A stretch of 64,000 nucleotides of DNA, from NCBI GenBank assembly GCA_013180625.2, contig SNVD02013746.1:791667-855666 (forward strand), read 5' to 3'. The notes beneath the pieces are model-generated. The model saw only the letters and a list, made by a program, of their open reading frames with translations, searched no databases and had not been told where the DNA came from. This DNA is from Boswellia sacra. Taxonomy: Eukaryota > Streptophyta > Magnoliopsida > Sapindales > Burseraceae. Of this stretch, positions 773-61,560 are shown one piece after another (position 1 is the first letter of the stretch; each line of letters begins with the position of its first letter). The position numbers and the translations under genes were made by a program.

Positions 773-774
773 TT

Positions 775-1123
775 TGTTGGGTATGCAATGCAAACTCAGA
801 ACAGAATTTGGGAGAAAATTAACTTGTATTAACAGAGAAAATTCAATATACAAGATTTACACAAAAACTCCCCTAAAATAATCCTGAAGCTCTCCTGGCT
901 CTCTCACTTCTAAACTCTCTGGTTTAGTTCCTCTCTGGGATGATCACAACTTTGCAGGACGTCCTCTATTTATAGAGGAGTCTGCATTACATTGTCAATG
1001 GGGTAGGTGAGGTTGGTCACCTAACCTTGCCTACCCCTAGACTTTCCTTTGGTTGGTCACCTACCTTACCAAGGGAGGTGCCAACCTTTGACACAATCAC
1101 ACATGGGAGGAAGACTTTCAACA
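775..1123 (-). repeat. LTR of element C (349 bp)
   Basis: It begins TGTTGG and ends TCAACA on the plus strand, next to the primer-binding site. A TATA-like CTATAAATAG is present on the minus strand at 966-975, in the expected place for an LTR promoter. The right border is placed from the terminal CAACA and the start of unrelated gag coding sequence at 1124. Confidence 0.65.
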
Positions 1124-1759
1124 AAAGCAGCCATCTGTGCGCATGAGACATCAATATCCTTTAAGCCTTAAGGAGCTGACTGAAAAACTTACTAATCATG
1201 AAAGTTTCTTCAATCGAGAAGTCGTCAGAAAGGGAAACACCACCATTATGGCTCAGTTCAATCAAAAGACTGATCATAATAGGGGCAAAGGAGGACAACG
1301 ACATCAATTTGGCAACAAGGGACATAGATCAAATTATGAAAATAGTGGCTATCAAGGAAATATGTCATTTAATCAGAGCCAACAACGAAATGGTTCTCAC
1401 CAAGGCAACTTTTCACAAGGCCATAATTTCTCCTATCCAAATTCCATTTCTAGGAATTTCAACATTGGCACCATCCATCAGCAAAATTGGGGTCCCAATA
1501 ATCCAAGAAAAAAAATGTGATATGTTCCTATTGTAACAAACCTGGACATATTGCCCGAAATTGTCTATCTCACCCTCCGCAGTCAAATTGGCCACAGGCC
1601 AATTTCACGACCAGTGAGCCGCAACAAAACAACAGTTGGATGGTCGATTCTAGTGCATCTCACCATATAAAATCTGACCTGCAAAATCTCTTTGTGCACT
1701 CTGAATATGACGTTAATGAAGGTATAATGATCGGAGATGGCAATGATATACCCATATCT
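1124..1759 (+). pseudogene. Copia gag-protease fragment (element A, left part)
   Basis: This is the left fragment of an old plus-strand Ty1/copia element. The frame 1137-1520 is a Gln/Asn/Gly-rich gag tail; the overlapping frame 1517-1759 carries a complete zinc knuckle CSYCNKPGHIARNC and then the start of the protease. The protease active site, normally DSGAS or DTGA, reads DSSASHH, so the catalytic Gly is lost. The change of frame near 1517 and the missing N-terminal gag show it is dead. The coding sequence stops at 1759 where element B is inserted and resumes at 7136. Confidence 0.85.
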
Positions 1760-2319
1760 TGTTATGCACAGCGGAAGCGATAACCAATAGAACAACTAAG
1801 TGCACAACCACAAACTATACTAGATAATAGAATATAATAGCAACTAAAGAGGCAACCAATCAACCACAATGTAGAAATAGAAATAACACCAATATTTAAC
1901 GAGGTTCGGTATGAATACCTACGTCCTCGGGCGCCGCTGAAGAAACTTTCTACTATCTTCAAAGAGAACTACAAACTTTTGAGCCACAATACAAATATCA
2001 CAACTATTGGGCCAAACTGTAATTACCTGAATAGTTGGGCCAAACTGTAATTACCTAAACAATTGGGCAATACTACAAATACCCAAAACAAAGGAGAAAA
2101 AAGTAAATATTACAAACTTTAAGGTCCTTAATGAAAGGCTCTTAAACTATGAGGTCTTATAGGTGAGACCTTACAAATAGAGGGGGTAGAGAAGAATTTC
2201 CAATGGGACACAAAACTTCTCCCATATGGCCTCCTTTTATAAGCCCATATGAGACTCATGCTTTGTAACTTAACCAATGTGGGATTTCTCTCCCACTTGC
2301 ATATGAGCCACACTTAACA
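1760..2319 (-). repeat. 3' LTR of element B
   Basis: 560 bp, TGTTATGC...TTAACA on the plus strand, matching 6576-7135 along its whole length. It carries a TATA-like TTATAAAAGG on the minus strand near 2233-2242. The adjoining purine-rich minus-strand run AAGGTGGAGATT (2320-2331) is the polypurine tract. Confidence 0.95.
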
Positions 2320-2420
2320 AATCTCCACCTTGGCGAATATGCTAACCCACCACAAATTTCTTCTTTTTCCCACATTCTCTATCACAACTACAACGCCTCC
2401 AAATGCGCCCACTGGCGCAG

Positions 2421-5400
2421 TCAAACTCGCACAATGTTGATCAAGTCCAAACAATGACTGAACTTGATCGCTGTCACAATCTTAGTCAACATATCTGCGG
2501 GATTCTCAACAGTCTCAATCTTTTGAAGTAAGATTCTCCCTTCATCAATAATCTCCCGCACAAAATGATACCGAACATCAATATGCTTCGTATGAACATG
2601 GAACACTGGATTCTTCGCTAAGTGGATAGCACTCTGACTGTCAGAATAAAGAGCGATCTTCTTTTGCCCAATTCCCAATTCATCCAACAGTCCCTGTAAC
2701 CAAATAGCTTCCTTCACAGCCTCTGTCATTGCCATATACTCTGCCTCTGTAGTAGACAAAGCCACTGTAGACTGTAAAGTAGACTTCCAACTCACTGGTG
2801 CTCTTGCAAGAGTAAACACATAACCAGTTGTCGACCGACGTTTATCCAAATCACCAGCATAATCTGAATCAACATAACCAATAGCATACTGACCACATGT
2901 ATCATCCCTCTCAAAGACTAAGCCAACATCTACAGTTCTCAACAAATACCGTAGAATCTATTTCACTGCTTGCCAATGTCCTTTACCAGGATCATGCATA
3001 TTCCTGCTCACAACTCCAACTGCATGTGAAATGTCAGGTCTCGTACACACCATAGCATACATCAAGCTACCAACTACATTAGCATATGGAACTCGAGACA
3101 TATACTCTCGTTCCTCATCTGTACTAGGAGATAAAGATGCACTCAGCTTCATATGAGGAGCAAGTGGGGTACTTACAGGTTTTGACTGTCAAACTACTGT
3201 AATACCTTCTTCAGATACTACTTCTGAGTCAAACAAATCTTGCTTCTCCCTCTATCTCTACTAATCTCCATGCCTAGTATCTTCTTAGCTTCTCCCAAAT
3301 CTTTCTTCTCAAACTCTCGATTCAACTGAGTCTTCAACTTTGCAATTTCTTCAACATTCGTCGAATCTATCAACATATCATCAACATACAAGAGTAGATA
3401 AATGAAAGAACCATCATGTAGCCTCCGAAAATACACACAATTATCAAATTTTGCTTCTTGTGTACCTCTGACCCATCATAAACCGATCAAATCGCTTATA
3501 CCACTGTCTGGGAGATTGCTTTAAACCATAAAGCGATCTTTTTAGTTTGCAAACCAAATTTTCCTTACAAGCAATTTTGAATCCCTCTGGCTGAGTCATA
3601 TAGATTTCCTCTTCCAAGTCACCATGTAAAAATGCAGTTTTTACATCAAGTTGAACTAGTTCCATATTCATCTGAGCTACAAAGGCCAACAAAATTCTAA
3701 TGGAAGAATGTTTCACAACTGGAGAAAATACCTCATTGTAGTCAATTCCTTCCCTCTGAGCGTAGCCTTTAGCCACCAACCGTGCCTTGTAGCGGATGTC
3801 ATTCTTGTCAGGAAATCCATCTTTCTTTGCATATACCCATTTGCACCCAATTACCTTTTTACCCTTCGGTAGTTGAGCTAGCTCCCAAGTTTCATTCTTC
3901 TGAAGAGACTGCATCTCTTCGCTCATAGCTGTCTTCCACTTATCAACTTCAGAGCATCTGACTGCCTCTCTATAAGTGGAAGGAACATTAGCATCTACAA
4001 TTGGAAGTGCATAGGCCACCATATCAACAAATCGAGCAGGTCTGTGAATCTCACGTCTTGGCCTATTAACTGCAATAGATTCTTGTTGCTGTTGAGGTTC
4101 CTGAGTAGAACCCTCTCCATCATCTCTCAAATCTCGCTCTGTCATAGGAGTACCATTATCTGTCTCAATAGATCTAACTGGGTTCAATATCGTTGTTTCA
4201 AACTCCACCTGCTGCTGAATATGCTCCACCTGCTATGAAGTACCATTCACCTTTGTCTGGTTTTCTGATTTCCTCAACATTGAAGACTCATCAAATGTCA
4301 CATCTCTGCTGGATATAATTTTCCTCGAACTAGGACACCAAAGATGATATCCTTTTACTCCTGAAGTAAATCCTAAGAAAATTGCTTTCTTGGCTCTAGG
4401 ATCCAGCTTAGATTCTTTCACATGATAATATGTTGGAGAACAAAAAACATGTAAAGAATCATAATCAGAAACAGGTTGTCTAGACCATACCTCCAATGGA
4501 GTTCTATCACCAATAGCAGCTGAAGGTAGACGATTAATGAGATGACACGCATAAGTCACAGCCTCAGCCCAAAATTCTTTGCCTAACCCAGCATTGGACA
4601 ACATACACCGAACTTTCTCCAGCAATGTCCGGTTTATGCGTTCTGCCACCCCATTCTGCTGCGGTGTACCTCTAACAGTAAAGTGACGTACAATACCCTC
4701 ATCATGACACAATTTAAAAAACTGATCACTGCAATACTCACCACCATTATCTATTCTGAGATGCTTGATCTTCTTACCAGTTTGTGTCTCAATCCTTTTT
4801 TTCCATTTAAGGAAAACACCAAGTACATCATCTTTTGATTTCAAACAGTACACCTAAGTTCTTCTGAAAAAGTCATCAACAAAAGTAACAAAGTAGTGCC
4901 TACCTCTCATAGATGCGGTTTTAGTAGGTCCCCACACATCTGAGTGAACATAATCAAGAATACCCTTAGTATTATGAATAGCGGTGCCAAATTTCACTAT
5001 CTTTTGCTTTCCCATAACACAATGCTCACAGAAATCCAGCTTGCAGGTCTTTGCAGCTTTCAATAAGCCTCGCTTTACCAAACTGAATAAGGCTTTCTCA
5101 CCTGCATGTCCCAAACGCATATGTCATAGTCTCGTGATCTCTGAATCTGCATCATTATTAGAAACCATAGCAGTTGATCCAATGAACGTATTACCATTAT
5201 AGTAATACAAGTTGTTCCTCCTAGTGCCTTTCAATACCACAAGAGCACCTGAAGTGACCCTCAGAATACCATCTCGAATAGATATACCACAGCCTTTAGA
5301 TTCTAAGGCTCCCAAAGAGATGAGATTCTTCTTCAATTTCGGTACATACCGAACATCTGTCAGAACTCTAGTCAGTCCATCATGATTCCTCAAACAGATC

Positions 5401-6414
5401 GAACCTATCCCAGCAGTATGGCAAATATCATCATTGCCCATATACACAACTCCACAATCAAGTTCCTCAAACTGAAAGAACCAATCCCGATATGGACACA
5501 TATGATAAGTACAACCCGAATCCATAATCTACTCATCAGAACCAAAAGTGGATGGATGACCAACTAGACATATATCCGACTCACTATCATCCTCACGCTC
5601 AATAACACATGCATCAGAAACAGCCTTGCCCTTATCTTTCTTTTTCAACTTAGGACAATCTTTCTTTCAATGCCCTTTGTCACGACAAAAGGCACACTCA
5701 TCTTTTCCTAATCTACCGCTCGACCAAGATTTTCCCCTTTTTCCTGGTTTCCTACTTTGACTACGCCCTCTCACTGTCAATGCATCTACTGACTCATCCC
5801 TATGTTCCCTTTGATCTTTCTTACGAATTTCATAATTCAACAAAGCAGAACATACTTCTTCAAAAGACAGTTTATCTTTCCCATGGATAAGAGTAATGCA
5901 CAAATGATCTAATTCATCCGGAAGTGAGCCAATCAATAGCATAACCTTAATTTCATCTTTGAAGGTTTCATCTAAGTTTAATAAATCAGCAATTAACTTA
6001 TTAAACTCATCAATATGAGAACTGATGCTCGTACCTGGTTTCAACTAGAGACGGAACAATCTTTTCAATAGATACAGCCGATTCTCATTGCTTTTCTTCA
6101 TATATTTGTTTTCCAGCGCCTTCCACAGTTTGCTTGCAGATGTCTCTTTCATGAACGGATACTTCTGTTCTCTACACAAGCAAGAGCGAATCAACCCATA
6201 AGCTTTTATATTCAGCCTGTCCCAATCTCTTGCACTAATATCTTCTGGTTTTGTTTCTTCTAGAACAATATCCAAATCTTGCTGATACAACCCGTCCAAC
6301 ACCTCATTCTGCCATAAGCCGAAATTATTTCAGCCATCAAATTTTTCAACATCTATTTTTGCATTTGTCACAGTCACTATCTTCTTAGGTACAGTTGACG
6401 ATGAAGCCATTACT
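2421..6414 (-). pseudogene. Degenerate gag-pol polyprotein of element B
   Basis: The reading frame starts at the ATG at 6412-6414 and runs to about 2421. In order it has the gag domain (5667-6414), a CAFC...GH zinc knuckle near 5690, protease with MDSGCTYHM (near 5500-5525), the integrase zinc-binding and DDE core (4233-5120, with RIDNGGEY and the GVAERINR glutamate), RT (3218-4229, with LYVDDML) and RNase H (2421-3152, with VDSDYAG, TEAEYMA and SDSQSAI). All catalytic motifs remain recognisable. It is broken by in-frame stops or shifts near 6330, 6044, 5525, 5122, 4853, 4230, 3440, 3155 and 2950. Related in sequence style to the tobacco TNT1 pol. Confidence 0.93.
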
Positions 6415-6561
6415 ACCTCTCATAAATAAGCTCGATACACAAATCACCAATAACCAAGCTCCAACAAACTATTATATTCAATAACTAGCAATCCAAAATC
6501 AATAGCCCAGAACAGTAGTAAGTGCTTCAATGAAATAGCCACTAACTACCCAAAACCTTCA

Positions 6562-6573
6562 GCTCTGATACCA
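6562..6573 (-). other. Primer-binding site of element B (tRNA-iMet)
   Basis: The minus strand reads TGGTATCAGAGC, two bases internal to the 5' LTR that starts at 6576. Confidence 0.9.
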
Positions 6574-6575
6574 AT

Positions 6576-7135
6576 TGTTATGCACAGCGGAAGTGATAAT
6601 CAACAGAACAACTAAGTGCACAACCACAAACTATGCTAGATAATAGAATATAATAGTAACTAAAGAGGCAACCAATCAACCACAATGCAGAAATAGAAAT
6701 AACACCAAGATTTAACGAGGTTCGGTATAAATACCTACGTCCTCGAGCGCCGCTGAAGAAACTTTCTACTATCTTCAAAGAGAACTACAAACTTTTGAGC
6801 CACAATACAAATACCACAACTATTGGGTCAAACTGTAATTATCCGAATAGTTGGGCCAAACTATAATTACCCAAACAATTGGGTAATACTACAACTACCC
6901 AAAACAAAGGGAGAAAAAGCAAATGTTATAAATTTTAAGGTCCTTAATGAAATGTCCTTAAACTATGAGGTCTTATAGGTGAGACCTTACAAATAGAGGG
7001 GGTAGAGGAGAATTTCCAATGGGACACATAACTTCTCCCATATGGCCTCCTTTTATAAGCCCATATGAGACTTATGCTTTGTAACTTAACCAATGTGGGA
7101 TCTCTCTCCCACTTGCATGTGAGCCACACTCAACA
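6576..7135 (-). repeat. 5' LTR of element B
   Basis: 560 bp, TGTTATGC...TCAACA, the partner of 1760-2319. It is followed by the target duplication TATCT at 7136-7140. Confidence 0.95.
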
Positions 7136-9340
7136 TATCTCACATTGGTTCCACTTCACTTTCTTCACTTACAGCCACTTTTAAACTTGATATTGTTTTG
7201 TGTGCTCCTCTAATCAAGAAAAATTTGTTGTCTATATCTCAGATTTGTAAACAAAATAATACTTTAATTGAGTTCTTTCCCAACTCGTTTCTTGTGAAGG
7301 ATTTGAGCATGGGGGCATCCTTTTTGCGCGGCCAAGGTAATGGAAATATTTATGCGTGGCCATCAACAAATTTCATGTCTTCTCCAGTTGCTTTAGTTGC
7401 CAATGCAGTTTCCTTTGAGTCATGGCATCGTTGTCTCGATCATCCTTCTAGTATTTATTCAAAAAAAGTTAGTCATTAGTCAACATCTCCCTGTTTCATC
7501 AGTGTTTCTATGAATCATTGTGACTCATGCCTTTGTAATAAGAGTCATAAACTTTCTTTTGGAATATCTTCAATTTCATGCAGTCGCCCTCTTAAAGTTA
7601 ATTTACACTGATGTTTGAGAACCTATACAGTTCGATTCCATTTTTTTATAATTTTAGTTATTTTGTTATTTTTTGTGGATTATTTTTCCAAATACACATG
7701 GTTTTATCTGCTTCAATAAAAATCCGAGGTTCCAACAATTTTTGAACGCTACAAGAAAATTGTTGAAAACTACTTTGTTACAATCATAAAAACTATTTAT
7801 TCGGATGACGGTGGTGAATATCGAAGTTTGGGACATCTTCTCTCTAAATTTGGTATTCAACACCTAACCTCCCCACCATATACTCATGATCGTGTTGTCA
7901 CTGCCAAAAGAAAACATCACCATATCTGTGAAATCGATCTCACTTTGCTTCATCAAGCCTCATTGCCACTTCGTTTTTGGTCCATAGCTTTTAACACTGC
8001 TGTGTATTTAATTAACCGTATGTCAACACAAGTGTTAAACTTCTTGTCCCTATTTGAAAATTTTTTTCACACATCACCTAATTTTCTTAAATTAAGATTC
8101 GTTGGCAGTTTGTGCTATCCATGGCTTAAACCATATACTTCCAATAAATTAGAACCTCAGTCCAGGCCATGTGTATTCCCTGCTTAATTCTCTTCAACAT
8201 AATTCATATCATTGTTTTGATCCACAACCTTGCAAAATCTTCATATCACGGCATGTGGTTTTTGTAGAATCATGTTTTCCATTTATGAGAATCTCCTTAA
8301 ATGATACTTGAAGTAATTCTCATTTAGCTTCCATGCGGTCAAGACCAACTTCTCTTCTCAACTATTTTCTCTTACAGATTCAGATTCATTTTGTTCTTTA
8401 CCTTCCAATAATGAGTCCACTTGCCAATTATGTCCAGCGAACCTTCCAACTCATGATATTGTTCCCATTCAAAAGATTCCCACACATCTATCACATCCTA
8501 CCAATTCTAGAATTTCTTCCCTTCCAAATCACAAATAAATTCCTTAACAGATTTTCCTAATTCCTTCAACTCTCTAGCTAGTAGCAACTCACAAATAATG
8601 CCGTCTACTCACTTTTGGCTTCACGGATTGCTCTCATGCAAAACTTTTTACAGGTACATACTTCTTCAATTTCTTCACCTTCTCATAAGTCCACATCATC
8701 TAAATCTACCCTTCTTACTTCCTCTCCATCCCAAATTGTTACCCGATCCAAAAATAATATATTCAAGTCAAAATTTTTTTTTGACTCACATCTACTGAAG
8801 CTGCGTTCAAAGCTGTTGCTGATGCCATTTTTGAGCTTGCCTAGGTAAAAAATCTTCTTTTAGAAGTTGTAATCCTACCAACTCTGCCACCAACAATATA
8901 TTGTGATAACATAGGTGCCATGCATCTCTCTGCCCATCCTGTGTTTCATTCAAAAATAAAACATGTTGCTATTGACTTTCATTTAGTGAGAGATCAAGTT
9001 TCCAAAGGTCAACTTTGCATATCTCATGTTCATACGGCTGACCAATTGGTGGATTCTCTTACCAAAGCTCTTCCTTATATAACATTTCAGGATCATCAAT
9101 TCAAGATTGGATTCCGTGATGGATGATCAATCTTGCAGGGCCATAGTAAACCTTGATTATAGGCTCATGTTTAGCATCTAATCTTTGCAATCATATGCTG
9201 TAAAACAGTTGTACGTATTCTGTTTCTATTTGTTTGATTTTGTTCTCCTCAATTATAGGAATTGGCTTCAGCTTGTAACTTGTGTATAATCACGTTGAAA
9301 TAGATAGTAAAATATAATTTAGCATCAATCTTTGAATACT
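7136..9340 (+). pseudogene. Copia integrase and RNase H remnants (element A, right part)
   Basis: This continues the copia broken at 1759. Frames 7198-7479 and 7828-8187 carry the pre-integrase and integrase regions (a WHRCLDHPS zinc-binding start and the LPLRFWSIAFNTAVYLINR segment after the DDE core), with many shifts between them. The RT is missing, apparently by deletion between about 8560 and 8860. The frame 8920-9126 is the C-terminal RNase H (HPVFHSKIKHVAIDFHLVRD). A non-coding tail follows (9127-9340), with no clear LTR; it ends where the Athila-1 LTR begins. Confidence 0.8.
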
Positions 9341-10723
9341 AGTCGCACAAGTAATAAAGTGATAGGTAGATATCGTTCCTATGAGGATTGATTCTAATTG
9401 AATTTGTTATTCAAAAGCAACAACAGAATAAATGGGGGGGTTTTGTTGATAGATTAATTAAATAAAATATTAATGTAAATGCACAATAACACAACACAAA
9501 GTAAAATGGAGTGAAAAATCAATGAGAGACACTTGGTTAAGGGTTCTTTCTCTGCCACAAGATATAAATTTGTGAATTAACATAGAATTGTAATCCAATT
9601 ACAGCATTGAAGTTATCAACCGTAGATAACAACAAGCTCTGTTATCCCAATCTTTCCTTACTTTGTTGTTAAATAAAACAAGCTCTTTATTTAATCTCTA
9701 TCCATTAAACAACCTAGAACAAGCTCTCTAAGTTTAATTCAATGGAAGCATTACGATAAGAAAGACAGGTTGATCTAAGCAATAATCACACAGGTCGGAT
9801 TATTTAACCTAGGTTGTATTTTCCAATTGCAATCTTTGATCACAATTTTGCTACTAATGATTGGAAATTCAAGACAATTACGGATCAAGATTTCTAATCT
9901 AGCAATAGACAACAACCAGATTATATTCAGTTGGCCATTCCAAATACAATTAGCAAGCAATCATAAGCATTAGATATGGGAAAATACAAGCAACTTCAAT
10001 TAGAGAATTGGATAACAACTTCTTACACAATCAACTCACAAAAACCATATCAAGGGCTTTGAAATCACCCTCAACCAATTCAGATTCAAGTACACATGTT
10101 CAAAAACGTGATAAATACAATACAACATATAAATTTTCCAAAAAATGAAAGGGAAGGGAAAAATTTAGCAATTCTGATTAAATCTCTTTGAATTATAGTT
10201 CTTCCTCTTTCCAAGCTTTCTTTCTCCTTCAAGAACTCCAAAAGATGAGAGAATTCCAGAGCTGCAGCCTCCAAGTCGTTTCCCCCTCTTCAAGTTATGA
10301 AAATAAAACCCTAAAATATGTTTATATACTCTGCTACAGTAACTTGCTACAGTGCCCCGTATTTAATAACATGCTACAGTGATATGTGGAATTACAAATA
10401 TACACTTTTCATACCATTTTTATCATAACTTTTGGTACACTACATAAATTCGTGAACTGTACATTTTTCCAGAAAATAGACTTCGAGAGCTTTTCAATCG
10501 TATATAGTATGTTATCCGGTTAATTGTATATTGATACAATCAACTCCGAGAAATTGGTTGATTAGCAGAGGTGAAAATGAAGGGTTTTACTTCATTTTTG
10601 TGCAAGTTGCTCCAAAACTCCTACAAACATCAAAACCACACAAAAACATAAAAATACCAAAGAATATAGCAAAGAAACATGGACAAATTGATATGAAAGT
10701 AATACATAAATAGACACCTATCA
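9341..10723 (-). repeat. 3' LTR of Athila-1
   Basis: Matches 22256-23646 from the shared ATACTAGTCGCACAAG onward and ends ...CACCTATCA at 10723. Compared with the right LTR it lacks the terminal TGATGCGTTCG part, so its outer end is truncated or rearranged against element A sequence. Confidence 0.9.
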
Positions 10724-12690
10724 AATTCCCCCACACTTAGACTTTGCTAGTCCTCGAGCAACTACAACGATATGAAAACAAAACTAAATTTAAACAGAAT
10801 CAAAGAAAAAATTAAAACACACATGTTTTAACTTGCAAATAGGCCTCAAAGATTGTACTTAATTATAACCTAAGGAAAACTTCAAAACAATGAACTTGAT
10901 CAAGAATCTCATTACAAAGATTAGTTTCGCTCTACTTCAATTCCTCCAGTGTGTGTGTGTAGAGCCATTCTCACCTAATAATTTATAACCCGGATGAGTT
11001 TATGCATAAAAATGAATCATATTTAATAGTGAAGATGTGTGTATAAATGAACTCCATAGGCCTGCTTTTCAAGTCACTCTCCACTAATGTAGACATGCAC
11101 AACACCAAGGATCAAGTAGGACTTTATTAAGCTTGTAACGTTTGGTTTGGGTGAAGGTATGATAAAGGATAATAATTTGGCTCAAATCACCCACAAACAC
11201 ATAAATCATTCAAGACTATGTAGAGCTCAACCCTATAACACAACTTTATTTTAATTCACCAGGTTACTCCCCCAAACTTATTTAGAACACTCAATCTTTC
11301 TTTTTTTCGCAGAAAACAAAAGAAAACTACACCCCCATACTTTGTTGTTTCATTCTTTTTAAGAACACTTAAGGGTGTAGATATCTTATTCTTCTTCTTT
11401 TGTTCTCTTTTTTTTTCTTTTTTTTTTTTTTACACTTCCCCTCCCCCACACTCAAACAACATATTGTCCTCAATGTGTAAGTACGTAGGCGATAAGTACA
11501 GATTGGCTTTTTTTTCTTTTTTCTTTTTTTTTTACAAACACAATAGAACTCACTTGCATTGCTCATGACACATCCCAACCTCCGCTAACTTCCCAAAACC
11601 AGAACATAGCTCAAAATTTAATTGTGAATGATCTACATGCTCATAGGTAAGGGATAAATTGTTTGGAACAAATTCATTTGAGGTTAGGAAATCTTTTAGT
11701 GAGTTAACAAAGAAAAAGGCTTACAAAGGCTCAAAAGGGGTAACTAGGGATCAATTTCAGTCAAGGTTGGCTATTAAGGCTCAAACGGTCCAAAGATGGC
11801 CTAAATCATTTCCCAATGTTGCACAGTCTAGGATTTCGCCTCGAGTGACCATCAAACAAGTTCTAGAATTCATTGAAATCTGAAGAAACATTTAAATTAC
11901 ATAACTTTCTCTAAGTGAACAAATAACTCAGTGATAATAGCTCAGTGCTCAATGTTGCGCAAGGAATCAAAAGCAAAGCGAAAACCAATAAACATTTCAA
12001 GCACACAGATCCATGCATCATTTATCATTTTCCAAGAGTTATTTTTAATTCAATCATTATCTTATCATTGACCCACAAAATGCAAGAAAAGAGGTACATG
12101 GCGTTGTTACACCTGAGTCAAGATTGTATATTTCAACAATCCTTAGGACCAGTAGCCCGCAGACTTAAGGTTTCCAGCCTATATACCTTTATTATGAAGA
12201 ACAAAACAAGAAACAAGACACTTCAAACAACATGAAATAAACAAACTACAAAGTTATTAAGAAGAATGCGTTTCAAGGGTTAATGAAACCCCATATTCTA
12301 CCATTCTTAGGTTTTTCCACAATTTTTTTTTTAAAATCGAAACTGATAAAGATAAAAACACATAACAACTCTAAATTACGCAAAACTAAACTCACTCATA
12401 AAATAACAAAGTTCAACAAGTCAGCAAACAAAACACAAGTTAGTTAGAATGGGTCTAAAAAAGTTTAGAAGTTAGCCTCCTTATTCAGCCATTATGGATT
12501 GAAGAGATCCAGAATGCGTTTCAAGAGAACTTGAACTTTTTAAGCCACCACTCTAAAAACCGAGATTAGAAAATATTACCTGGGACGAAAGAAATAACTT
12601 GAAAAAGCTCAAAAGAAATAACATGAAAAATCTCAAATAAACACAATAAAAAGAGAGCAAACAAAAGTGAAGTAAACCAATAGATAAAGA
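10724..12690 (-). other. Athila-1 3' untranslated region and polypurine tract
   Basis: Directly inside the LTR, the minus strand has the polypurine tract GTGTGGGGGAATT (10724-10736). The rest has no supported gene. It holds T/C-rich runs (11395-11450, 11510-11535) and, at 11461-11476, a near-palindrome that on the minus strand reads ACATTGAGGACAATAT. The same motif is in Athila-2 at 60754-60769, each time followed downstream by a G-rich purine run. The small plus-strand frames here look like chance. Confidence 0.7.
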
Positions 12691-13340
12691 TTACAGACTT
12701 AGCGTTAAATCCAGTTTACGCCTTTTATTGCCTTCCGCAAACCAATCTATCTGAGCTATTATTGGATCAGGCGAATAGATGAATGCTTGTAATTTGTCAA
12801 TTAACTCCCTTGCAGTTGAAACTGTAACCAGGATTTGCCTCGCCGACTGTGAGATAAAGTTTTTTTCTACTGCTTGATCAAGAAAAGACAACAAACCATC
12901 AAAAAATTATTGACATTTAACAAACCAATGGGTTTCCGATGGATGTTTAGCTGTGCCCAAGAGGTGATTTGAAATATCTCTTCTAATGTACCATAACCAC
13001 TGGGCAAAGCTATAAATGCATCAGATTTAATGACCATATGTGCAATACGCTCATGCATGTTAGAGACCTGTAACTCTTCCCCCATTGTGTTGCCTATGAT
13101 ATCTCGCACAGCTAATGGTTTAGGAATAATGCCGAGAACTTTACTTCCTCCCAAGGATGCAGCTGTCGACACACACCCCATTAACCCAAGACTATCCCCT
13201 CCATAAATCAAATGAATACTCCTCGCAGCTAATGTCCTACCAAGATCAAGAGCTGCTGTTGTAAACTCTCCATCTTTACCAAATTGCGATCCACAAAATA
13301 CGCATATATTTTGGAATCGCCGAATTGGTGTTTTCTCCAT
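12691..13340 (-). pseudogene. LOG-like cytokinin-activating enzyme, frameshifted copy in Athila-1
   Basis: LOG enzymes release active cytokinin bases from their nucleoside 5'-monophosphates. The frame 12867-13340 starts MEKTPIRRFQNICVFCGS and has the Rossmann-like phosphate-binding region IYGGDSLGLMG, the NMHER segment and SGYGTLEE. The C-terminal part continues in another frame (12691-12894), ending KLDLTLSL. A one-base change in a T-run near 12903-12908 causes the shift. The invariant PGGxGTxxE has become PSGYGTLEE and GGG has become GGD, so this copy is probably dead. There are no introns, unlike plant host LOG genes. It lies in sense orientation within the element and is 60-65% identical by eye to the open copy at 60902-61552. 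Confidence 0.88.
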
Positions 13341-13344
13341 TTCT

Positions 13345-13690
13345 ACAAGTGCTCTAACCTTGTGTAAGACAATGATGCACGTTAGGTAATATGCTTTTCA
13401 AGTGTAAGACAGGTTATAATAATGACATTTGAAAATATGGAGAATGGATATATACACACATAAAACTCTCAAATTTGACACATGGGGACATAATTTCGGT
13501 GGGGGTTGCTCGATGCAGATTTATCGCCCTAAGATTTGAAAAAAATGAGATATGCTTTCGGCAGGGTTTGACAAAACCTACACATTTGTCTCCCACGTGA
13601 AGCATGAAAAATAGAGATATACTTTCGGTGGAGGTTTGACAAAACCTCCACACTTGTCTCCCACGTGTACTTATGCCATAAGGTAGTCAT
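13345..13690. repeat. Duplicated 67-bp hairpin unit with G-box
   Basis: Two units, 13547-13599 and 13614-13667, share GAGATAT.CTTTCGG, GTTTGACAAAACCT and TGTCTCCCACGTG, with a period of 67 bases. The second holds a 20-bp imperfect palindrome at 13630-13649 (stem GGAGGTTT/AAACCTCC apart from one base). A third, weaker relative lies upstream at about 13480-13510. The segment sits between LOG and the NABP-like ORF and is not evident in Athila-2, so it may be a MITE fragment inserted into Athila-1. Its function is unknown. Confidence 0.5.
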
Positions 13691-13895
13691 ATGGTTTGTC
13701 AAAAAGAAAACTTGAAATTAAAACAAACAAAATCAACAAACAACAACAACACAAAAACAACATTGATAATCAGATCAAACGAAACAAGAAAAAATAAAAT
13801 TCGACAACAACAACACACATTCAAATATACAAGTAGTTGTGATTGTGGCTCACATCTTCCTCTGGTTTTACGTCCAGTAACGGCTGAAACGCCTT

Positions 13896-14445
13896 CTATG
13901 AGTCGGGGATTTGCTTCCCATCCAGTTTTCTTATAAACTGGCAAACAGGGTCGTTTTTAGTCAGATTCCCTAAACTATAACACTGCAATTCATCACGAAA
14001 TTGTGTCCATAGATTAAGCAATTCACGCTGAACAAGTCCACAAGAATGTGACTCAAGAGTTAATAAAACATTATCCAGCGACTCATTACTCAGACCATTC
14101 TTAATAAATGAGAGTTTATCTTCTCTATTTCCTGGACACAAAACCTAATGAACGACAAGTCTGGTTACAATTCTATCTAGCACATTTATAACATACTTGT
14201 AACCTCTTTCGCCTCTTGGCGTAGTAGCTTTTTCCTAGACCAGGCATATATTTTACGAGATTAATGTCCGGCTCACCGGACAATCTCACATTGGCTTCGA
14301 TAAGCCATCGGATATCCGCAGGCACATTTAAGAGCATCAACGCCCAAAGTCTAGTCATCCGTACTTTATAAATTTTGAACACAGCATTTTGAGGAAGTGA
14401 AGGAAAATATTTACGAAGGTTCGACAGAAAGATATCGGCATCCAT
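13896..14445 (-). pseudogene. Small basic Cys-rich protein, NABP-like, broken (Athila-1)
   Basis: The start MDADIFLSNLRKYFPSLPQN at 14445 matches the Athila-2 copy at 62413. Residues 1-90 end in a basic stretch YYAKRRKRLQVC and the first CxxC of a zinc-finger-like cluster (CYKC...CNQTC); a TAG at 14173-14175 replaces the Trp codon found in Athila-2. The frame then continues with CRSLGFVS and, after a shift, 13896-14141 (FIKNGLSNESLDN..., ending KLDGKQIPDS). The sequence Gly-Lys-Ser-x-Tyr-Ala, basic cluster, four Cys, then FIxxG(L)S resembles carlavirus nucleic-acid-binding proteins in layout. That relation is an inference and needs a profile search. Conserved sequence continues about 75 bases past the stop. 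Confidence 0.6.
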
Positions 14446-14877
14446 TGAAGAGAAGAAAAGGAGAGATATTATCGATAATGCGATTGAGTCTGTTCTTCTC
14501 CAAGATGTGCACGTTTCAAACCTTCGGGCAATGGCTTCAGCTTCCGTTTAGATGTTTCCTCAAGCTGTTGCACAAATGAGCTCAAAGCACGGAAAAATCA
14601 AATTAAACAAAAGAAACGAAAAGAAAACAAAATAAAATAAAGACACATAAAAGAAATAAAAACACAATAGCAAACAAAAGTCAAAAATAAACAAAGAAAC
14701 AAATGAGACAGATTGCAAAGAGAGATAAAACCTGATCAATTACGTTCGATAAAGCCTATGAGAGGAATCTCCTCGAGATACAAAAATTGATCATCATTAC
14801 CTTCTTTTCTTCTTCTCTTTTTATTTATTTTTCAAAAACATTGGGTTGCCTCCCAGTAAGCGCTTGGCTTAACGTCC
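14446..14877 (-). other. Spacer between integrase and Cys-rich ORF (Athila-1)
   Basis: About 430 bases, A-rich on the plus strand around 14580-14740 and with a T/C run near 14805-14835. I see no env-like ORF here, which is where Athila elements often carry one. Confidence 0.5.
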
Positions 14878-16185
14878 TCAGCCTGACGTTATCTGTCCAC
14901 ACCCATCAAGATAAGTTGGCTCGTAGAGAGGTACCTCATCGATGTCCTGCATCACTGAATTATCATAGTAAGGCTTCAACCTGTGCCCATTCACCTTGAA
15001 TACTTTATCCGTTTTTAAGCTCTTGATTTCCACTGCACCATGGGGAAAAACATTAATAATAACAAAAGGTCCAACCCATCGAGATCGTAATTTACCTGGA
15101 AATAACTTGAGGCGAGAATGAAATAAAAGAACTTTCTGTCCCACTTCAAAATTCTTCCTGGAGATCATTTTATCATGAAATGCCTTAGTTTTCTCCTTGT
15201 AAATTCTAGAATTCTCATAGGCATCATTTCTAAGTTCTTCCAATTCTTGCAGTTGAAGCTTCCTTTGTTCTCCAGCAGCATCCATCTCCATGTTACAAAG
15301 CTTTACTGCCCACCATGCTTTATGTTCAAGCTCCACTGGAAGGTGGCATGGCTTACCATAGACTAACCTGTACGGAGACATACCAATAGGTGTCTTGTAA
15401 GCAGTCCGGTATGCCCAAAGTGCATCATTCAATCGTAGGCTCCAATCTTTGTGGTTCAGATTCACTGTCTTCTTGAGAATGGACTTGACTTCTCGATTTG
15501 AAACTTCAACTTGACCACTAGTTTGTGGATGATATGCAGTAGACACCTTGTGAGTGATGTTGTACTTCTTGAGCAAGGCTTCAAATGATCGGTTGCAGAA
15601 ATGTGTCCCTCTGTCACTAATCATGGCTCTTGGTGTTCCAAATCTCGCAAAAATATTAGATTTCACAAAATCTACAACAACTTTAGAATCATTAGTTCTC
15701 ATAGCTTTTGCTTCCACCCATTTAGAAACATAATCCACAGCAAGTATAATGTAAACATTACCAAAAGATGAAGGAAAAGGACCCATGAAATCAATACCCC
15801 ACACATCAAAAATCTCGACAATAAGTATAGGGGTTTGTGGCATTTGATTTTTGGCACTTAAATTACCTGTCCTTTGACAATGGTCACAAGCTTTGCAGAA
15901 CAGATATGCATCTTTGAATAATGATAGCCAATAGAATCCACAATCAAGAACTTTAAGGGCTGTTCTTTTTGGTCTGAAGTGACCTCCACATGCATAAGAA
16001 TGACAGAAGGTTAAAATTGAATTAAATTCAGATTCAGAAATGCACCTTCTTATCACTTGGTCAGAACAATACCTCCATAAGTACGGATCATCCCATATGT
16101 AATACTTGGCAATGTTCTTAATCTTGTCTCTTTGAGCTCGAGTCAAGTCATGTGGTAGCTTCTTGGTAACTAAGTAGTTGACAAT
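14878..16185 (-). CDS. Athila-1 integrase (open, 5' end displaced by insertion)
   Basis: The open frame 14878-16146 encodes 422 residues: the HHCC zinc-binding domain (about residues 48-90, [10 protein letters not shown]...CKACDHCQ), then the DDE core with [17 protein letters not shown] and the glutamate in QVEVSNREV, and a C-terminal domain rich in basic residues ([10 protein letters not shown]). It inserts new cDNA into the genome. Upstream codons continue to 16185, where the solo LTR cuts it from RT-RNase H. There is no chromodomain. In the original element this was part of one polyprotein with 17992-22127, so the ATG at 16146 is not a natural start. Confidence 0.93.
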
Positions 16186-16208
16186 TGTTGACCCAGGTAT
16201 GGCAACCC

Positions 16209-16244
16209 GAGGGGGGGAGGGAGGGGGGGGGGGGGGGGGGGGGG
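16209..16244 (+). repeat. G-rich tract
   Basis: 36 bases nearly all G, with a pure run of 22 G at 16223-16244. It could form a G-quadruplex. The true length is uncertain because such homopolymers are often mis-assembled. Confidence 0.8.
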
Positions 16245-16529
16245 AATTGGGTTTTTATTTATCAAAACGGATTTAGAAAACTTTTCTTGAAAGATCAAAA
16301 TTAGTTCACTCTTTCTTTGAAAATAAAGGTGAAGAAGATGAAATTAGAATTTATCAAAGATGCAATCAAAAGAATAATAATGATGAACAATCACAAGTGC
16401 AAGTAAATGTAAAGAGGAAAGGGATAGAGAGAGTGCAAACTCAATTTACGTGGTTCGGCAAACCTTGCCTACGTCCACGGGCTCCTAGCTCCACGAGCTA
16501 AGCTTTCCACTAAGTTGTAGAAATCTTTA

Positions 16530-16800
16530 CAACTTGCTTGATGAACAACCTCACCAAGACTTTTTCTTTCAACTCTTGATAACACCACACCAAGAGTTCT
16601 TCTTGATGAACAACCTCACCAAGGCAACTTCCTTCAACCCTTGATAACACCACACCAAGAGTTCTTCTTGATGAACAACCTCACCAAGGCAACTTCCTTC
16701 AACCCTTGATAACACCACACCAAGAGTTCTTCTTGATGAACAACCTCACCAAGGCAACTTCCTTCAACTCTTGATAACACACAACAAGAGTTCTCTCAAG
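16530..16800 (+). repeat. About 60-bp tandem array in the solo LTR
   Basis: Roughly four units, each with CTTGATGAACAACCTCACC, AAGGCAACTTCCTTCAAC and a CTTGATAACACCACACCAAG phrase. The two middle units are almost identical, indicating recent duplication. Confidence 0.85.
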
Positions 16801-17102
16801 GATAACTATTATCCTTTACAATAATATCTCACTCTCACCACAATACAAGAACAAAGATAATTTTTACAACAAAAGTATAACTCTCTTCAAAGAGTAGATA
16901 AATAATATAAAAGCTCTCTAGACTTGATATTTCTCTTGCTTTTTGCTTGATAAAATGCTTCTCTTGCACTCCTTGAATGCATGGGAGAATGGCTCCTTTT
17001 ATAGGCAAATGAGATGAACTTAATCAAGTGAAGACACCAACTCCAAATTTTCTGCCCACCATAAAAACCGTAATCTTGTCTTCCATTTTTGTCAATGTTC
17101 CA

Positions 17103-17790
17103 TTTGAAATTTGAAAATATGCAAAACATAAAAGATTTATCATTTGAATAAGCTTTCCAACGCATCAAGAATAAAGTCATTTGGATATCTGTAGCTCAAG
17201 ATATGGCCAAAACACCATTCGGTGCTCATGTGACTTGATTTTTCTTTCTTGTGTCAGTCCACCAAATTGAATGATAATTCTGTCAGCCTTCCGTTTGAAA
17301 TTTGAATTTCTTCAAAACATGAAAGATCTGCATATTTGAATAAGCTTTCCAAAACATTAAGAATAAAAGCATTTGGATATCTCTATCTTAAGATATGGCC
17401 AAAACACCATTCGGTGCTCATGTGAGTTGATTTTTCTTCTTTGTGTCAGTCCACCGAATTGCATGTCAATTATGTCGGCCTTCTGTTTGAAATTTGAATT
17501 TTTTCAAAACATATGAAATGTTTTTCATTAAGTCATCTTTCCAATGCCATAAGAATCAAGTCATTTTGATTTTTCTAGCTCAAGATATGTCCAAAGGAGT
17601 ATTCGGTGCTCATGTCAGCTGCTTCCATTTGTCTTTCAACTTGCATGATGATTTGGACAACCTTGCACTTGAAATTTGAATTTCATTAAAACATATGAAA
17701 TGTTATAAATTGAGTAAGCTTTCCAAAGGCTCAAGAATCACATCATTTGGATATTTGTAGAGATATATATGACCAATTGATTGAACATTG
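17103..17790 (+). repeat. About 190-bp tandem array in the solo LTR
   Basis: Four diverged units start with TTTGAAATTTGAA at 17103, 17294, 17485 and 17669 (spacings 191, 191, 184). Each has a CTTTCCAA..CAAGAAT, a CATTTGGATAT and a GGTGCTCATGT phrase. Probably formed by duplication in the LTR. Confidence 0.8.
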
Positions 17791-17991
17791 CTCATGTGTC
17801 ACATTCCTTGAGTCAATCCTTGTTCTTAAACTTTGGTGCCTTTAACATGTAGTCTTCTCCTTAGCTTCAACACTTCATTTTAATAAGCCTCTTCTTGATT
17901 TTAAAATTATTTCAATGATCTTACTCTTGCATATAAATAAACATATTAGTAAATCTTAATTAATCAATGTGTATTGTTATCATCAAAATTA

Positions 17992-19298
17992 TCATGTAGC
18001 CTTAGGGCTAACAACAATATCTGCAAACCAAGGGGCTACTACATTTAGAAAGAACAATTGTTCATCCGAAAAACTTTCTTGTAATGCCAGTGCATTCTTA
18101 TCATGGACAATGCAACTGAGATGGTCTGCAACTAAGTTTTCACTTCCCTTCTTGTCTTTGATCTCCAAGTCAAACTCCTGTAAAAGGAGTATCCACCTGA
18201 TAAGCCTTGGTTTAGCATCTTTCTTTGTGAGCAAGTACCTCAAAGCTGCATGATCAGAATAAACGGTTACTTTAGTACCAATCAAATAAGATCGAAACTT
18301 TTCTAAAGCAAAAATAACCGTTAGCAGCTCTTTCTCAGTGGTAGAATAATTAAGTTGAGCATCATTTAAAGTCTGAGATGCGTAGTAAATGGCATGTGAA
18401 ATTTTGCCGATTTGTTGATCCAAAACGGCACCCACAGCGTAGTCACTTGCATCGCACATGATCTTGAATGGATGATTCCAATTCGGAGATTGGATTACTG
18501 GAGCCGAAGTCAAGAGTTCCTTTAGTTTCTCAAATGCCTCTTTGCATTTCTCATCAAATTCAAAGGCCACATCATTCTGTAATAATCTGCATAGGGGCAA
18601 TGCTATCTTCGAGAAATCTTTGATGAATCTACGATAAAAACCTGCATGACCAAGAAACGAACGAATATCCCGCACACTTGTGGGAGGTGGTAAGGAACAT
18701 ATAAGATCTATCTTGGATTTATCCACCTCTATACCCTTAGCAAAAATAACATGTCCCAAAACTATACCCTGATCTACCATAAAATGACATTTCTCCCAAT
18801 TCAGAACAAGGTTAGTTTCTATACATCTTTGAAGTATAAGGGTAAGGTTGTCAAGGCATTTATCAAAAGAATCACCAAAAACACTAAAGTCATCCATAAA
18901 TACCTCAATAATGTTCTCAACATAATCAGAGAAAATACTTACCATACACCTTTGGAAAGTGGCAGGGGCATTGCAAAGACCGAATGGCATGCGTCGATAG
19001 GCAAATGTACCGAATGGGCATGTGAATGTAGTTTTCTCTTGATCCTCAGGGGCAATGACAATCTGATTATATCCTGAATAGCCATCAAGAAAACAATAGT
19101 GAGAATGACCTGCTAACTCTCCAGCATTTGATCAATGAATGGCAAAGGAAAGTGATCCTTGCGAGTTGCTGAATTGAGCTTCCGATAATCAATACAAACT
19201 CGCCAGTCGGTTTGGATACGAGTGGGAACTAGCTCATTATTGTCATTCTTAACCACCGTAACACCAGATTTCTTCGGAACAACTTGGACTGGACTCAC
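17992..19298 (-). pseudogene. Athila-1 reverse transcriptase and RNase H
   Basis: The N-terminal RT part is at 19113-19298 (DWRVCIDYRKLNSATRKDHFP) and the main frame is 17992-18990: [13 protein letters not shown], the catalytic FMDDF (aspartates at the YxDD position), and RNase H with [28 protein letters not shown] and [10 protein letters not shown]. The domain copies element RNA into DNA and removes the RNA strand. A stop near 19112 splits the RT. The last 8 codons at 17992-18013 run into the solo LTR. Otherwise the catalytic residues are present. Confidence 0.92.
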
Positions 19299-22127
19299 CC
19301 ACTTGCTTGTCCGAAATTGGATAAATCACACCCACATCTAACAATTTCAGGATTTCTTTCTTGACAACTTCCATCATTGGAGGATTCAACCTCCGCTGTG
19401 CTTCTCGAGTGGGCTTGGATCCTTCTTCTAATAAGATACGGTGCATGCATATGGCTGGGCTAATACCTTTGATGTCAGCGATTGTCCACCCAATGGCTGT
19501 TTTGTGATCTCGAAGCACTCGGATGAGTTTCTCTTCTTGTAACGGTGCAAGGCCCTTTGCTATTATGACTGGCAAAGTATCTTTCTCACCCAGGAATACA
19601 TGCTTCAAATGATCTGGAAGAGGTTTAAGCTCCAAGGCAGGTGCTTTCATCACAGAAGGAAGAAGTTTCTCATTAGATAAAGGCAATTCAATGTACGAAA
19701 CATCATACCTGTTTGTGGTGATAGCTATAGTCTCATCCAAGCTTGCCATAGCTTCCTCCACTTCTTTAGACACTTGTATCAACTTCCTTGATTCTCTGGA
19801 ATTTTCTGCCCCTATGTGCTCACTAATGGCTACTTCCAATGCATCATTGCGAGTTAACTCAAAAAGTTGTTGTGCCAAAGAATCAATAACATCAACTGCA
19901 AAAACAGAATGCAAGTCACTAGGGTACCTCATTGCCTCAAAAATATTGAAACGAATCACCTCGCCATCAAACTCCATGGTGAGAGTGCCATCATGAACAT
20001 CAATATTGGTTCGGGCAGTTTTCAAGAATGGCCTCCCCAAAAGAATCGATGTTGGATTGGGAGATGTCTCATCCTCCATTTCCAGAACATAGAAGTCTGC
20101 TGAAAAAATCAATTGATTTACCTGCACAAGCACATCTTCCACAACTCCTTTAGGATATGCATTAGAACGATCAGCAAGTTGAATTACAATACTAGTTTCG
20201 ACAAGGGGTCCAAGATTCAAAGAAGCATAAATAGAATATGGCATGACATTAATAGATGCTCCTAAATCTAACATAGCTCTTTCAAACTTGGTATTACCAA
20301 TAGTGCATAGAATAGTGAACGTACCTGGATCTTTGCATTTCGGAGGAATTTTTCTTTGCAATACAGTTGAAATATTTTCCCCCACACTTATCTTCTCATT
20401 TCCTTTCAACTTTCTCTTGTTGGTGCATAACTCCTTGAGAAATTTTGCATAACGAGGTACTTGCTTGATAGCATCCAGAAGTGGTATATTTACCTCGATC
20501 TTGCGAAAAGTTTCCAAGATTTTCTGTTCTTGTTCCTCCTTCTTTGATTTTGCAAATCTGCTAGGAAAAGGTGGGAGAGTAACATATGAAGGAATATGAG
20601 TTTTATGATTTACCTTAGAAGATGATATTTTATTCATGGTGGAAGTTGTGTCATCCCCTTCATCAGTTTGTGATTTCTTTGGTGGAATCTCTAATTGCTT
20701 CCCACTTCTCAAAGTTTCAGCACTAGCATTCTCTCTTGGATTGATCACCGGCTGAGAAGGTAATTTTCCTGAGCTTTGACTCTCAAATTTGCTCATGTTA
20801 GTGGCCAATTGTCCTATTTGATTTTCCAGGTTTTGGATACTTGCCCTAGTTTCCTGCTGAAATTGCATTGTGTTAGTGGCAAGTGCTTTAACAATATCCT
20901 GGAGAGACATACCTGAATTTTGTGGAGCTGGTTGTGGTGCTGGTTGTGGTTGTGCTGGAAATGATTGCTGCACCCTTGGTTGATTGAAACCTGGTGGTCG
21001 ATTTGGTATGGCATTTGGGGCAATTGGTTGATGATTCCCATATCTCTCCATCCAGCACTGTAAGTATTGGAGAAAGGGTCATAACTTTGCCTTGGTTGTC
21101 CTGCAAATCCACCCATGGCATTGGCTTGTTCTGTATCTCCTTCTTGCAAAGTTGGACACATGTCGGTTGGATGGTCCATGGCAGAATATACTCCACATGC
21201 ATAAGATTGCTACATATGTCCTACAACCATTTTTTTTACAAGAGAGGTAAGTTCACAAAGTTGTTGTTCAATGTTTGAAGTACTTACCTCATTTACTCTT
21301 TTTGGTAGTTGTGGCTCGAATTGACTGCTGAATTGTTGGGAGTTTGCTGCCATGTCATTAATCAAACGTCTTGCAACGTTCGGTGTTTTATTAACTAGTG
21401 CTGCACCACTAGCAGCATCAATGATACTCCTTTCCATTGGTAAGAGACCCTTATAGAAATATTGAATTAGGAGTCCATCACTAATTTGGTGGTTTGGACA
21501 GCTGGCACATAACCTTTTAAATCTCTCCCAATATTCATGAAGAGATTCTCCATTGTGTTGTCGAATGCCACTAATATCTTTTCTAATATTTGTAACTTTC
21601 GAGGCTGGAAAGTATTTCTCCAAAAAGAGTTTACTCATCTCATTCCAAGTGATAATGGTACCCGGTGGTAGATAGTATAGTCAATCTTTTGCCGAATCTG
21701 CTAATGAGAATGGGAAAGCTCTCAATTTAATTTGCTCTTCAGAAACGCCGGTTGGCTTCATACTTGAGCATACCATATGAAATTCATTGAGGTGTTTGTT
21801 CGGATCCTCTCCTGCAAAACCATGAAATGTAGGCAAGAGATGAATCAGTCCAGATTTAAGTTCAAAATCTATCTCAAAATTGGTGCTTATGCATAGCGGT
21901 TGTTGATCAATAATTGGAGCCACTAACTCCTTAAGAGTCTAATCATTTTCCATCGCCATTGCTTCTGATTCAGATTTGATTGAACTGCAAGAATATGGGA
22001 GGGAAGTATGTCGTGCAAGGTCAAATTCTGGAGGTGGAGTTGAAATTGACCGATTTAGCCTTAAATTCGAGGATTGGAGAAACTCTTTAATTCTCTTAAG
22101 TCGTTGATCCGCTTCTCCCTCGGACAT
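19249..22127 (-). pseudogene. Athila-1 gag and protease
   Basis: The polyprotein begins at the ATG at 22127 (MSEGEADQRLKRIKEFLQ). Gag capsid frames are 21681-21923 (FHGFAGEDPNKHLNEFHMVC) and 21210-21638 (YFPASKVTNIRKDISGIRQ, the standard retrotransposon gag domain). A Gln/Pro-rich linker and the protease lie in 19249-21051; the aspartic protease site reads MLDLGASINVMPYS, the usual Athila form. The frame 19249-21051 (600 aa) runs into the RT start. Gag is broken by stops or shifts near 21925, 21660 and 21200. Fragments only, so no functional particle protein is expected from this copy. Confidence 0.9.
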
Positions 22128-22233: not shown

Positions 22234-23646
22234 TGATGCGTTCGAAACTAGCAAGTATACTAGTCGCACAAGTAATAAAGTGATAAGTGGATATCGTTCC
22301 CACGATGATTGATTCTAATTGAATTTGTTATTCAAAAGCAACAACAAAATAAATGGGGGGGTTTTGTTGATGGATTAATTAAATGAAATATTAATGTAAA
22401 TGCACAATAACACAACACAAAGTAAAATGGAGTAAAAAATCAATGAGAGACACTTGGTTAAGGGTTCTTTCTCTGCCACAAGATATGAATTTGTGAATTA
22501 ACATAGAATTGTTATCCAATTACAGCATTGAAGTTATCAACCGTAGATAACAACAAGCTCTGTTACCCCAATCTTTCCTTACTTTGTTGTTAAATAAAAT
22601 TAGCTCTTTATTTAATCTATATCCATTAAACAACCTAGAATAAGCTCTTTGAGTTTAATTCAATGGAAGCATTACGAAAAGAAAGACAGGTTGATCTAAG
22701 CAATAATCACACATGTTCGGATTATTTAACCCAGGTTGTATTTTCTAATTGCAATCTCTGATCACAATTTTGCTACTAATGATTGGAAATTCAAGACAAC
22801 TACGGATCAAGATTTCTAATCTAGCAATAGACAACAACCAGATTATATTCAGTTGGCCACCCCAAATACATTCAACAAGCAATCATAAGCATTAGATATG
22901 GGAAAATACAAGCAACTTCAATTAGAGAATTGGATAACAACTTCTTACACAATCAACTCACAAAAACCATATCAAGGGCTTAAAAATCACCCTCAACCAA
23001 TTCAGATTCAAGTACACATGTTCAAAAACGTGATAAAAACAATACAACATACAAATTTTCCAGAAAATGAAAGGGAAGGGAAAAACTTAGCAATTCTGGT
23101 TAAATCTCTTTGAATTATAGTTCTTTCTCTTTCCAAGCTTTCTTTCTCCTTCAAGAACTCCAAAAGATGAGAGAATTCCAAAGCTGCAGCCTCCAAGTCG
23201 TTTCCTCTTCTTCAAGTTATGAAAATAAAACTCTAAAATATGTTTATATACTCTGCTACAGTAACTTGCTACAATGCCTCCGTATTTAATAACATGCTAC
23301 AGTGATATGTGGAATTACAAATATACACTTCTCATACCATTTTTATCATAACTTTTGGTACACTACATAAATTCGTGAACCGTAAATTTCTCCAGAAAAT
23401 AGACTTCGAGAGTTTTTCAATGGTATATAGCATGTTATCCGGTTAATTGTATATCGATACAATCAACTCCGAGAAATTGGTTGATTAGCAGAGGTGAAAA
23501 TGAAGGGTTTTACTTCATTTTTGTGCAAGTTGCTCCAAAACTCCTACAAACATCAAAATCACACAAAAACATAATAATACCAAGGAATATAGCAAAGAAA
23601 CATGGACAAATTGATATGAAAGTAATACATAAATAGACACCTATCA
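22234..23646 (-). repeat. 5' LTR of Athila-1 (1413 bp)
   Basis: TGATGCG...CCTATCA on the plus strand. A minus-strand TATATAAA is near 23242-23252. The partner LTR is 9341-10723. A 69-base unassigned stretch (23647-23715) separates it from the next copia. Confidence 0.92.
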
Positions 23647-23715
23647 CATATGCATGGTTAAGTCAAGTTGATTATCAATGCCAGTGTCAATGCTAATCTT
23701 CAATGGCAAGAATTA

Positions 23716-32458: not shown

Positions 32459-32473
32459 GACTGAAAAAAGAAA

Positions 32474-61552: not shown

Positions 61553-61560
61553 GTCTATGC

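Follow-up and report, generated by a model that had tools for sequence, protein, structure and literature searches.

Two Athila-like retrotransposons with similarity to LOGL4 were reportedly described by Steinbauerova et al. in 2011. The Gypsy consensus sequences of Populus and of two Citrus species have been documented to contain a YgdH/LOG domain (PMC9289625, citing Steinbauerova 2011), and plant Gypsy elements bearing a LOG-type domain are already in print (PMC9289625). The locus of Boswellia sacra analyzed here is comparable in that a LOG-family ORF lies inside a plant Gypsy element; however, the passages of that report on the Citrus and Populus elements name neither a partner similar to viral nucleic-acid-binding proteins (NABPs), nor a pocket change, a C-terminal tail or a pol-less subfamily (PMC9289625). 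Likewise, no report of these four features was found among the literature matches listed (titles and abstract beginnings, open literature) and, as judged from those matches, the NABP-like partner, the pol-less subfamily, the LOG pocket change and the LxLxL tail appear to be new here.

Extra ORFs between pol and the 3' LTR are known from plant Gypsy elements, the sense ones being described as mainly Env-like, while antisense extra ORFs of plant retrotransposons are described as mostly of unknown origin (PMC7264820). The genes reported here share position and sense orientation with the Env-like third ORF (PMC7264820), but they are two ORFs, and they presented no Env similarity in the Pfam scan. 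Similarly, orchid Gypsy elements carrying an AlkB-type m6A demethylase are a case of a fixed extra functional domain, although the domain is a different one (PMC9289625). Compared with the plant LOGs (2A33, LOG3; 1YDH, LOG8), the element LOG shares the family match, the PGGxGTxxE motif and the catalytic Arg/Glu, but it differs by a replaced pocket Lys and Glu, by an EAR-like tail and by its uninterrupted frame inside an LTR element. The Cys-rich ORF (CRP) resembles flexivirus NABPs (PF05515, PF01623) in combining a basic stretch with a Cys finger, and differs from them by its length of about 182 aa, by conserved N- and C-terminal parts that the profile match does not cover, and by being encoded by a retrotransposon.

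Two cassettes inside Ty3/Gypsy elements

The window, i.e., the whole stretch of DNA that was analyzed, comprises 64,000 nt of B. sacra (GCA_013180625.2, contig SNVD02013746.1, 791,667-855,666 of the forward strand). On its minus strand, element 1 begins with a 5' LTR (22234-23646; starting with TGATA and ending with GCATCA), followed by a gag piece (21210-21638; PF03732, 6.2e-14), a gag C-terminal/protease region (19249-21051; PF13650, 4.4e-4, under the curated cut-off), reverse transcriptase/RNase H (17992-18990; PF17917, 7.9e-36; PF00078, 2.8e-14) and integrase (14878-16146; PF00665, 7.5e-18; PF17921, 5.5e-8). Downstream of the integrase, on the same strand, lie the CRP (13896-14445), which has a broken frame and is recognized as flexivirus NABP-like by its intact relatives, and the LOG-like ORF (12691-13340; PF03641, 1.8e-26 on the piece 12867-13340). 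A polypurine tract (10727-10736, minus strand) directly precedes the 3' LTR (9336-10723, minus strand, without its final ~23 bp). The LTR ends were placed by the ends of genome copies bearing target duplications.

The LTR pair, gag, and the reverse transcriptase-RNase H preceding integrase are marks of Ty3/Gypsy, and we take the sequence following the 5' LTR to resemble Athila. When 22257-23649 was aligned with 9336-10726, the LTRs agreed at 1,337 of 1,391 aligned bases (K2P 0.040); at the LTR substitution rates used for dating, 1.3e-8 and 7e-9 per site per year, element 1 is approximately 1.5-2.9 million years old. The LOG of element 1 is broken by a frame change near 12867-12906 and reads PSGYGT where its relatives have PGGxGT, its tail, KLDLTLSL, being encoded in the second piece. 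Direct repeats of 65 bp and ~192 bp spacing occupy 16537-17797, between RNase H and integrase.

In the second, diverged element, the same genes follow an integrase core (62709-63365, minus strand; PF00665, 1.2e-12) in the same order, with CRP pieces in a broken frame (61866-62413, minus strand) and an intact LOG-like ORF of 216 aa (60902-61552, minus strand; PF03641, 9e-39) ending in LDLNLRL. The LTR pair of element 2 is not entirely within the window, and the synonymous sites of the two window integrases are saturated, leaving their dN/dS uninformative. The earlier note had described the gene pair at 12691-14445 as internal cargo of a gypsy element and not as a neighboring gene, and had located the pair again, in unchanged order, at 60902-62413 in a second element. 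Its observation is confirmed: both cassettes are real, with the order integrase, CRP, LOG on the minus strand, and in element 1 the pair is flanked by both LTRs, as internal cargo.

Regarding the remaining content of the window, two exact head-to-head Tn5 mosaic ends (61561-61598; 38 bp), located ~8 bp upstream of the start codon of the element 2 LOG, are a sequencing-adapter artefact of the assembly. A LINE-type element with reverse transcriptase, endonuclease and DUF4283 (29762-33310, minus strand), a host-like phosphoglucomutase/phosphomannomutase gene in pieces (35956-38451, plus strand; PGM_PMM domains I-III), and Copia-type pieces (3444-4229, 24518-24877 and 54882-57552; RVT_2, Retrotran_gag_2, gag_pre-integrs) were further detected.

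The cassette family and its pol-less subfamily

Among the 10,198 loose candidates from a PF03641 search of the 638.6 Mb genome, 150 were scored, and these all lie over the cut-off and have no stop within the 131-aa domain. Twenty loci were taken with their flanks from these best 150 of 10,198 places, L001-L008 (glanced at) and L029 being left out of the analyzed set; because of its origin in the 150 best LOG-domain places, this sample is biased to intact LOG. LOG was matched across all 216 residues in every locus, and it was stop-free in 17 of them (stops occur in L009, L012 and L014). Moreover, a CRP match was present upstream of LOG, on the same strand, in 18/20 loci, a pairing that is not due to chance since the loci had been picked by LOG alone. 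In L009 and L027, LOG was present with no CRP match within the fetched stretch, and in L020 the contig end falls inside the CRP match. Integrase, with that of element 1 as the query, was identified in the fetched upstream stretch of four loci, contig ends having shortened some of the stretches. With a LOG 97.7% identical, L011 is a member of the element 2 family.

Twelve of the 20 loci jump from window position 19369 of element 1 to 14890. The stretch bounded by these breakpoints (14890-19369, minus strand, by junction comparison) contains the end of the protease region, reverse transcriptase, RNase H and nearly the whole integrase, and all of this has been removed from the 12 copies, which retain gag sequence, CRP and LOG. 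The junction is identical in 12/12, including the same two-base CC, denoting a single founder deletion whose later amplification presumably drew on pol supplied in trans. The 5' flank was fetched for ten of these copies, and for nine the 3' LTR was also in range. Eight of the nine presented exact 5-bp target duplications, while in the ninth, L017, a polypurine-tract-like sequence precedes the 5' LTR; LTR divergence in the nine ranged from K2P 0.005 to 0.034, the figure for L015 having been dropped as it rests on 28 bases. The eight copies that bear target duplications are entire LTR units, and the gene pair is therefore internal cargo in them as well. In 2/12 copies, the gag-protease stretch can be read through as a single frame without interruption. 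In this context, we observed an amplified, non-autonomous LTR-gag-CRP-LOG-LTR subfamily that has spread without a pol of its own. A second junction, near window positions 22134|21356, occurs in nine of the 12 members; L013 starts at it, and L016 and L024 are without it.

Both genes bear the signature of purifying selection. Between families, the LOG of element 2 compared with 19 family-1 copies gave dN/dS of 0.168-0.208 at dS 1.17-1.38, and the window CRP piece compared with eight family-1 copies, chosen for an uninterrupted CRP, gave 0.171-0.202 at dS 1.03-1.21. Within family 1, where sampling bias touches the figures (the between-family ones being touched least), pooled pN/pS for LOG was 0.169 over 171 pairs (0.138 when restricted to the 12 pol-less copies, 0.263 when restricted to the four that have integrase), and for CRP it was 0.177 among the same eight copies. 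The comparison of the window CRP piece with L011 (dN 0.196, dS 0.245), which is out of line with that of LOG (dN 0.010, dS 0.070), was left unused because the L011 match is split between frames. By the terms of the earlier note, only two cases, with neither purifying selection nor expression, would have reduced the cassette to a single old capture; instead, paired genes were found in 18/20 loci, with between-family dN/dS of 0.17-0.21.

These values bear directly on the possibility that LOG and CRP were passively captured and ride along without function. Neither window copy has an unbroken CRP frame, LOG is broken in one of the two, that of element 1, and CRP is uninterrupted and near full length in only 8/20 loci, as would be expected of passengers; however, dN/dS of that order at dS > 1 in both genes, the 60-79% CRP identity to one reference relative (P0129) across 70 aligned relatives, which come from named plants and from metagenomes, and the maintenance of the pair in a subfamily that lost pol make passive capture highly improbable. 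That a plant Ty3/Gypsy lineage has long carried the cassette as an accessory module, and did not pick it up by a recent accident, forms part of the explanation that we prefer, which as a whole has in our judgment an even chance of being correct.

A Cys-rich protein related to flexivirus NABPs

Flexivirus CRPs are described as determining pathogenicity and suppressing silencing, and p12 of chrysanthemum virus B as a weak suppressor that is also a transcription factor inducing hyperplasia (PMC12172455). In the Pfam scan, the window CRP pieces alone were under the cut-offs, and their affiliation was established through intact relatives; 306 relatives, intact or not, were found at E <= 10 (the best 120 of 306 were listed). 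The intact proteins of ~182 aa present a basic stretch and then a finger with four conserved Cys. Among 71 of the 120 listed relatives, aligned for being near full length, 65 matched the viral NABP profile PF05515 (best 1.1e-8) and 65 matched PF01623, Carla_C4 (best 3.7e-8), at E <= 0.001, and the curated cut-offs were exceeded by five (PF05515) and seven (PF01623) of eight intact relatives. The assignment of the Cys-rich ORF to the NABP relatives, as proposed in the earlier note, is consequently upheld, the viral link resting on profile scores over the short finger region. The fold model of CRP is weak (pLDDT 67.7, pTM 0.31); 4/29 of its viral structure matches are flexivirus NABPs or silencing suppressors, none of the 29 reaching E 0.001, and the best two, both flexivirus silencing suppressors, have E 0.19 and 0.54. 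In IMG/VR viral contigs, no relatives of LOG or of the CRP alignment were found. CRP is a basic zinc-finger protein, and binding to RNA or DNA, together with a blunting of host silencing of the element, is its most likely role.

Origin, pocket and tail of the element LOG

At least 7,955 LOG-family proteins were found (7,998 candidates scored), of which the best 120 were listed. The listed relatives of LOG and CRP include Populus, Reevesia, Diplodiscus, Xanthoceras, Melia, Parasponia, Acer, Rhamnella and Orobanche, and they are probably element-borne, as judged from clade and copy number. Relatives of both genes share the size of their longest contig (8,723 for P0005, LOG, and P0129, CRP; 2,128 for P0022/P0123; 1,018 for P0012/P0222), which hints that LOG and CRP occur on one contig elsewhere, the short ones hinting at it least.

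A LOG tree of 64 rows was built from 31 of the 120 listed hits, the two window LOGs, four loci, 20 of 120 cellular LOGs, four solved-structure fragments and three Xanthoceras rows. One branch (support 99/98) sets 37 element LOGs apart, another (100/95) sets apart 22 cellular LOGs, and the three Xanthoceras rows group with the element LOGs (98/92); within the element clade falls a Populus protein annotated as LOGL10 (row P0052). Removal of the Xanthoceras rows from the best 120 listed hits left 117 element-clade hits. For the cellular control, one LOG8 and two bacterial LOGs were added to the best 120 hits obtained with LOG3 as the query; this set represents one part of the family.

In CgLOG, Arg99 and Glu122 have been proposed as catalytic, Met96, Lys100 and Glu121 as the adenine site and, by superposition, Met96, His97, Lys100, Glu125 and Trp129 as the prenyl site (PMC4979012). 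The element LOG (PF03641, with 211.8 bits to 2A33) keeps marks of the family, with PGGxGTxxE in 98/117 element-clade hits and 20/20 loci (cellular LOGs, 108/120), and both catalytic Arg and Glu in 106/117 hits and 20/20 loci. These features, together with the purifying selection on LOG, would agree with an ordinary cytokinin-activating enzyme whose local product keeps cells dividing and favors the inheritance of new copies, as the earlier note had suggested. However, the pocket has changed: at the Lys100 position (CgLOG numbering), Lys was identified in 1/117 hits (M in 47, I in 46, L in 22 and T in one), and at the Glu125 position Glu was found in none of the 117 (Q in 85, H in 27, others in five), with neither residue in any of the 20 loci. 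In contrast, both are present in 120/120 cellular LOGs, in 1YDH, 1T35 and 5ZBJ, and in the three Xanthoceras rows. Alanine at AMP-binding or catalytic residues of CgLOG, Lys100 among them and Ser19 excepted, led to near loss of activity (PMC4979012). MmLOG is described as differing at the pocket and yet still being a LOG (PMC4979012). Furthermore, angiosperm LOGs form four groups, and plant LOGs with shared critical residues can yield different products (PMC11593424), so that residues alone do not settle LOG activity.

The C-terminus of the element LOG presents basic residues followed mostly by L(D/N)LxLxL. The LxLxL motif lies within the last 15 residues in 96/120 listed hits vs 0/120 cellular LOGs, occurs anywhere in the protein in 97/120 vs 6/120, and is present in 94 of 102 full-length hits (214-229 aa). 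LxLxL is a form of the EAR motif, which is bound by TOPLESS; being short, it may serve another purpose. Pocket change and tail are both absent from the three Xanthoceras rows, for which reason they may have arisen on the stem leading to the element clade.

With its pocket Lys replaced in 116/117 and its pocket Glu in 117/117 hits, and with a tail absent from 120/120 cellular LOGs, production of active cytokinin by the element LOG, assumed in the earlier note, is doubtful, and the action on dividing or meristematic cells that was built on it is at most conjectural. A plain cytokinin role remains the main rival, although an unlikely one. A repurposed, perhaps nuclear, LOG would be the better reading.

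The same tail bears on a further alternative, in which the pair would be an accessory packaging or replication module that leaves the development and defence of the host untouched, with CRP as an RNA chaperone and a LOG-like protein that clears or senses a nucleotide. The basic stretch and Cys finger of CRP, and the retention of gag sequence, CRP and LOG in pol-less copies, are compatible with this; nevertheless, the conserved basic LxLxL tail would be left unexplained, and we consider such a module distinctly improbable.

We therefore return to the preferred reading, in which CRP would bind RNA or DNA and lower host silencing of the element, and a captured, uninterrupted LOG frame would have turned into a different protein. 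This protein, keeping the catalytic Arg/Glu pair and the phosphate loop, with the pocket Lys changed to I/M/L and Glu to Q/H, and with a tail of basic stretch plus LxLxL in the form of an EAR repression motif, may work in the nucleus, where it could recruit TOPLESS-type corepressors and/or handle a nucleotide other than the usual precursors of cytokinin. Host defence or silencing programmes would thereby be damped, to the benefit of the element. As regards these two modules, CRP and changed LOG, the case seems to us evenly balanced. The bolder version, a two-part counter-defence kit that joins a flexivirus-type suppressor to a nuclear, TOPLESS-recruiting LOG acting perhaps on a defence nucleotide, and that was spread by the pol-less derivative, is offered tentatively and is rather unlikely.

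In brief, both extra genes of this retrotransposon have identifiable relatives and are under purifying selection between families, and a non-autonomous element has kept these accessory genes after losing pol. Pocket and tail are two clade-wide LOG changes that give direct predictions. If true, retrotransposons and RNA viruses would share an anti-silencing-type protein, and some annotated plant LOG genes, such as the Populus LOGL10, may be retroelement proteins.
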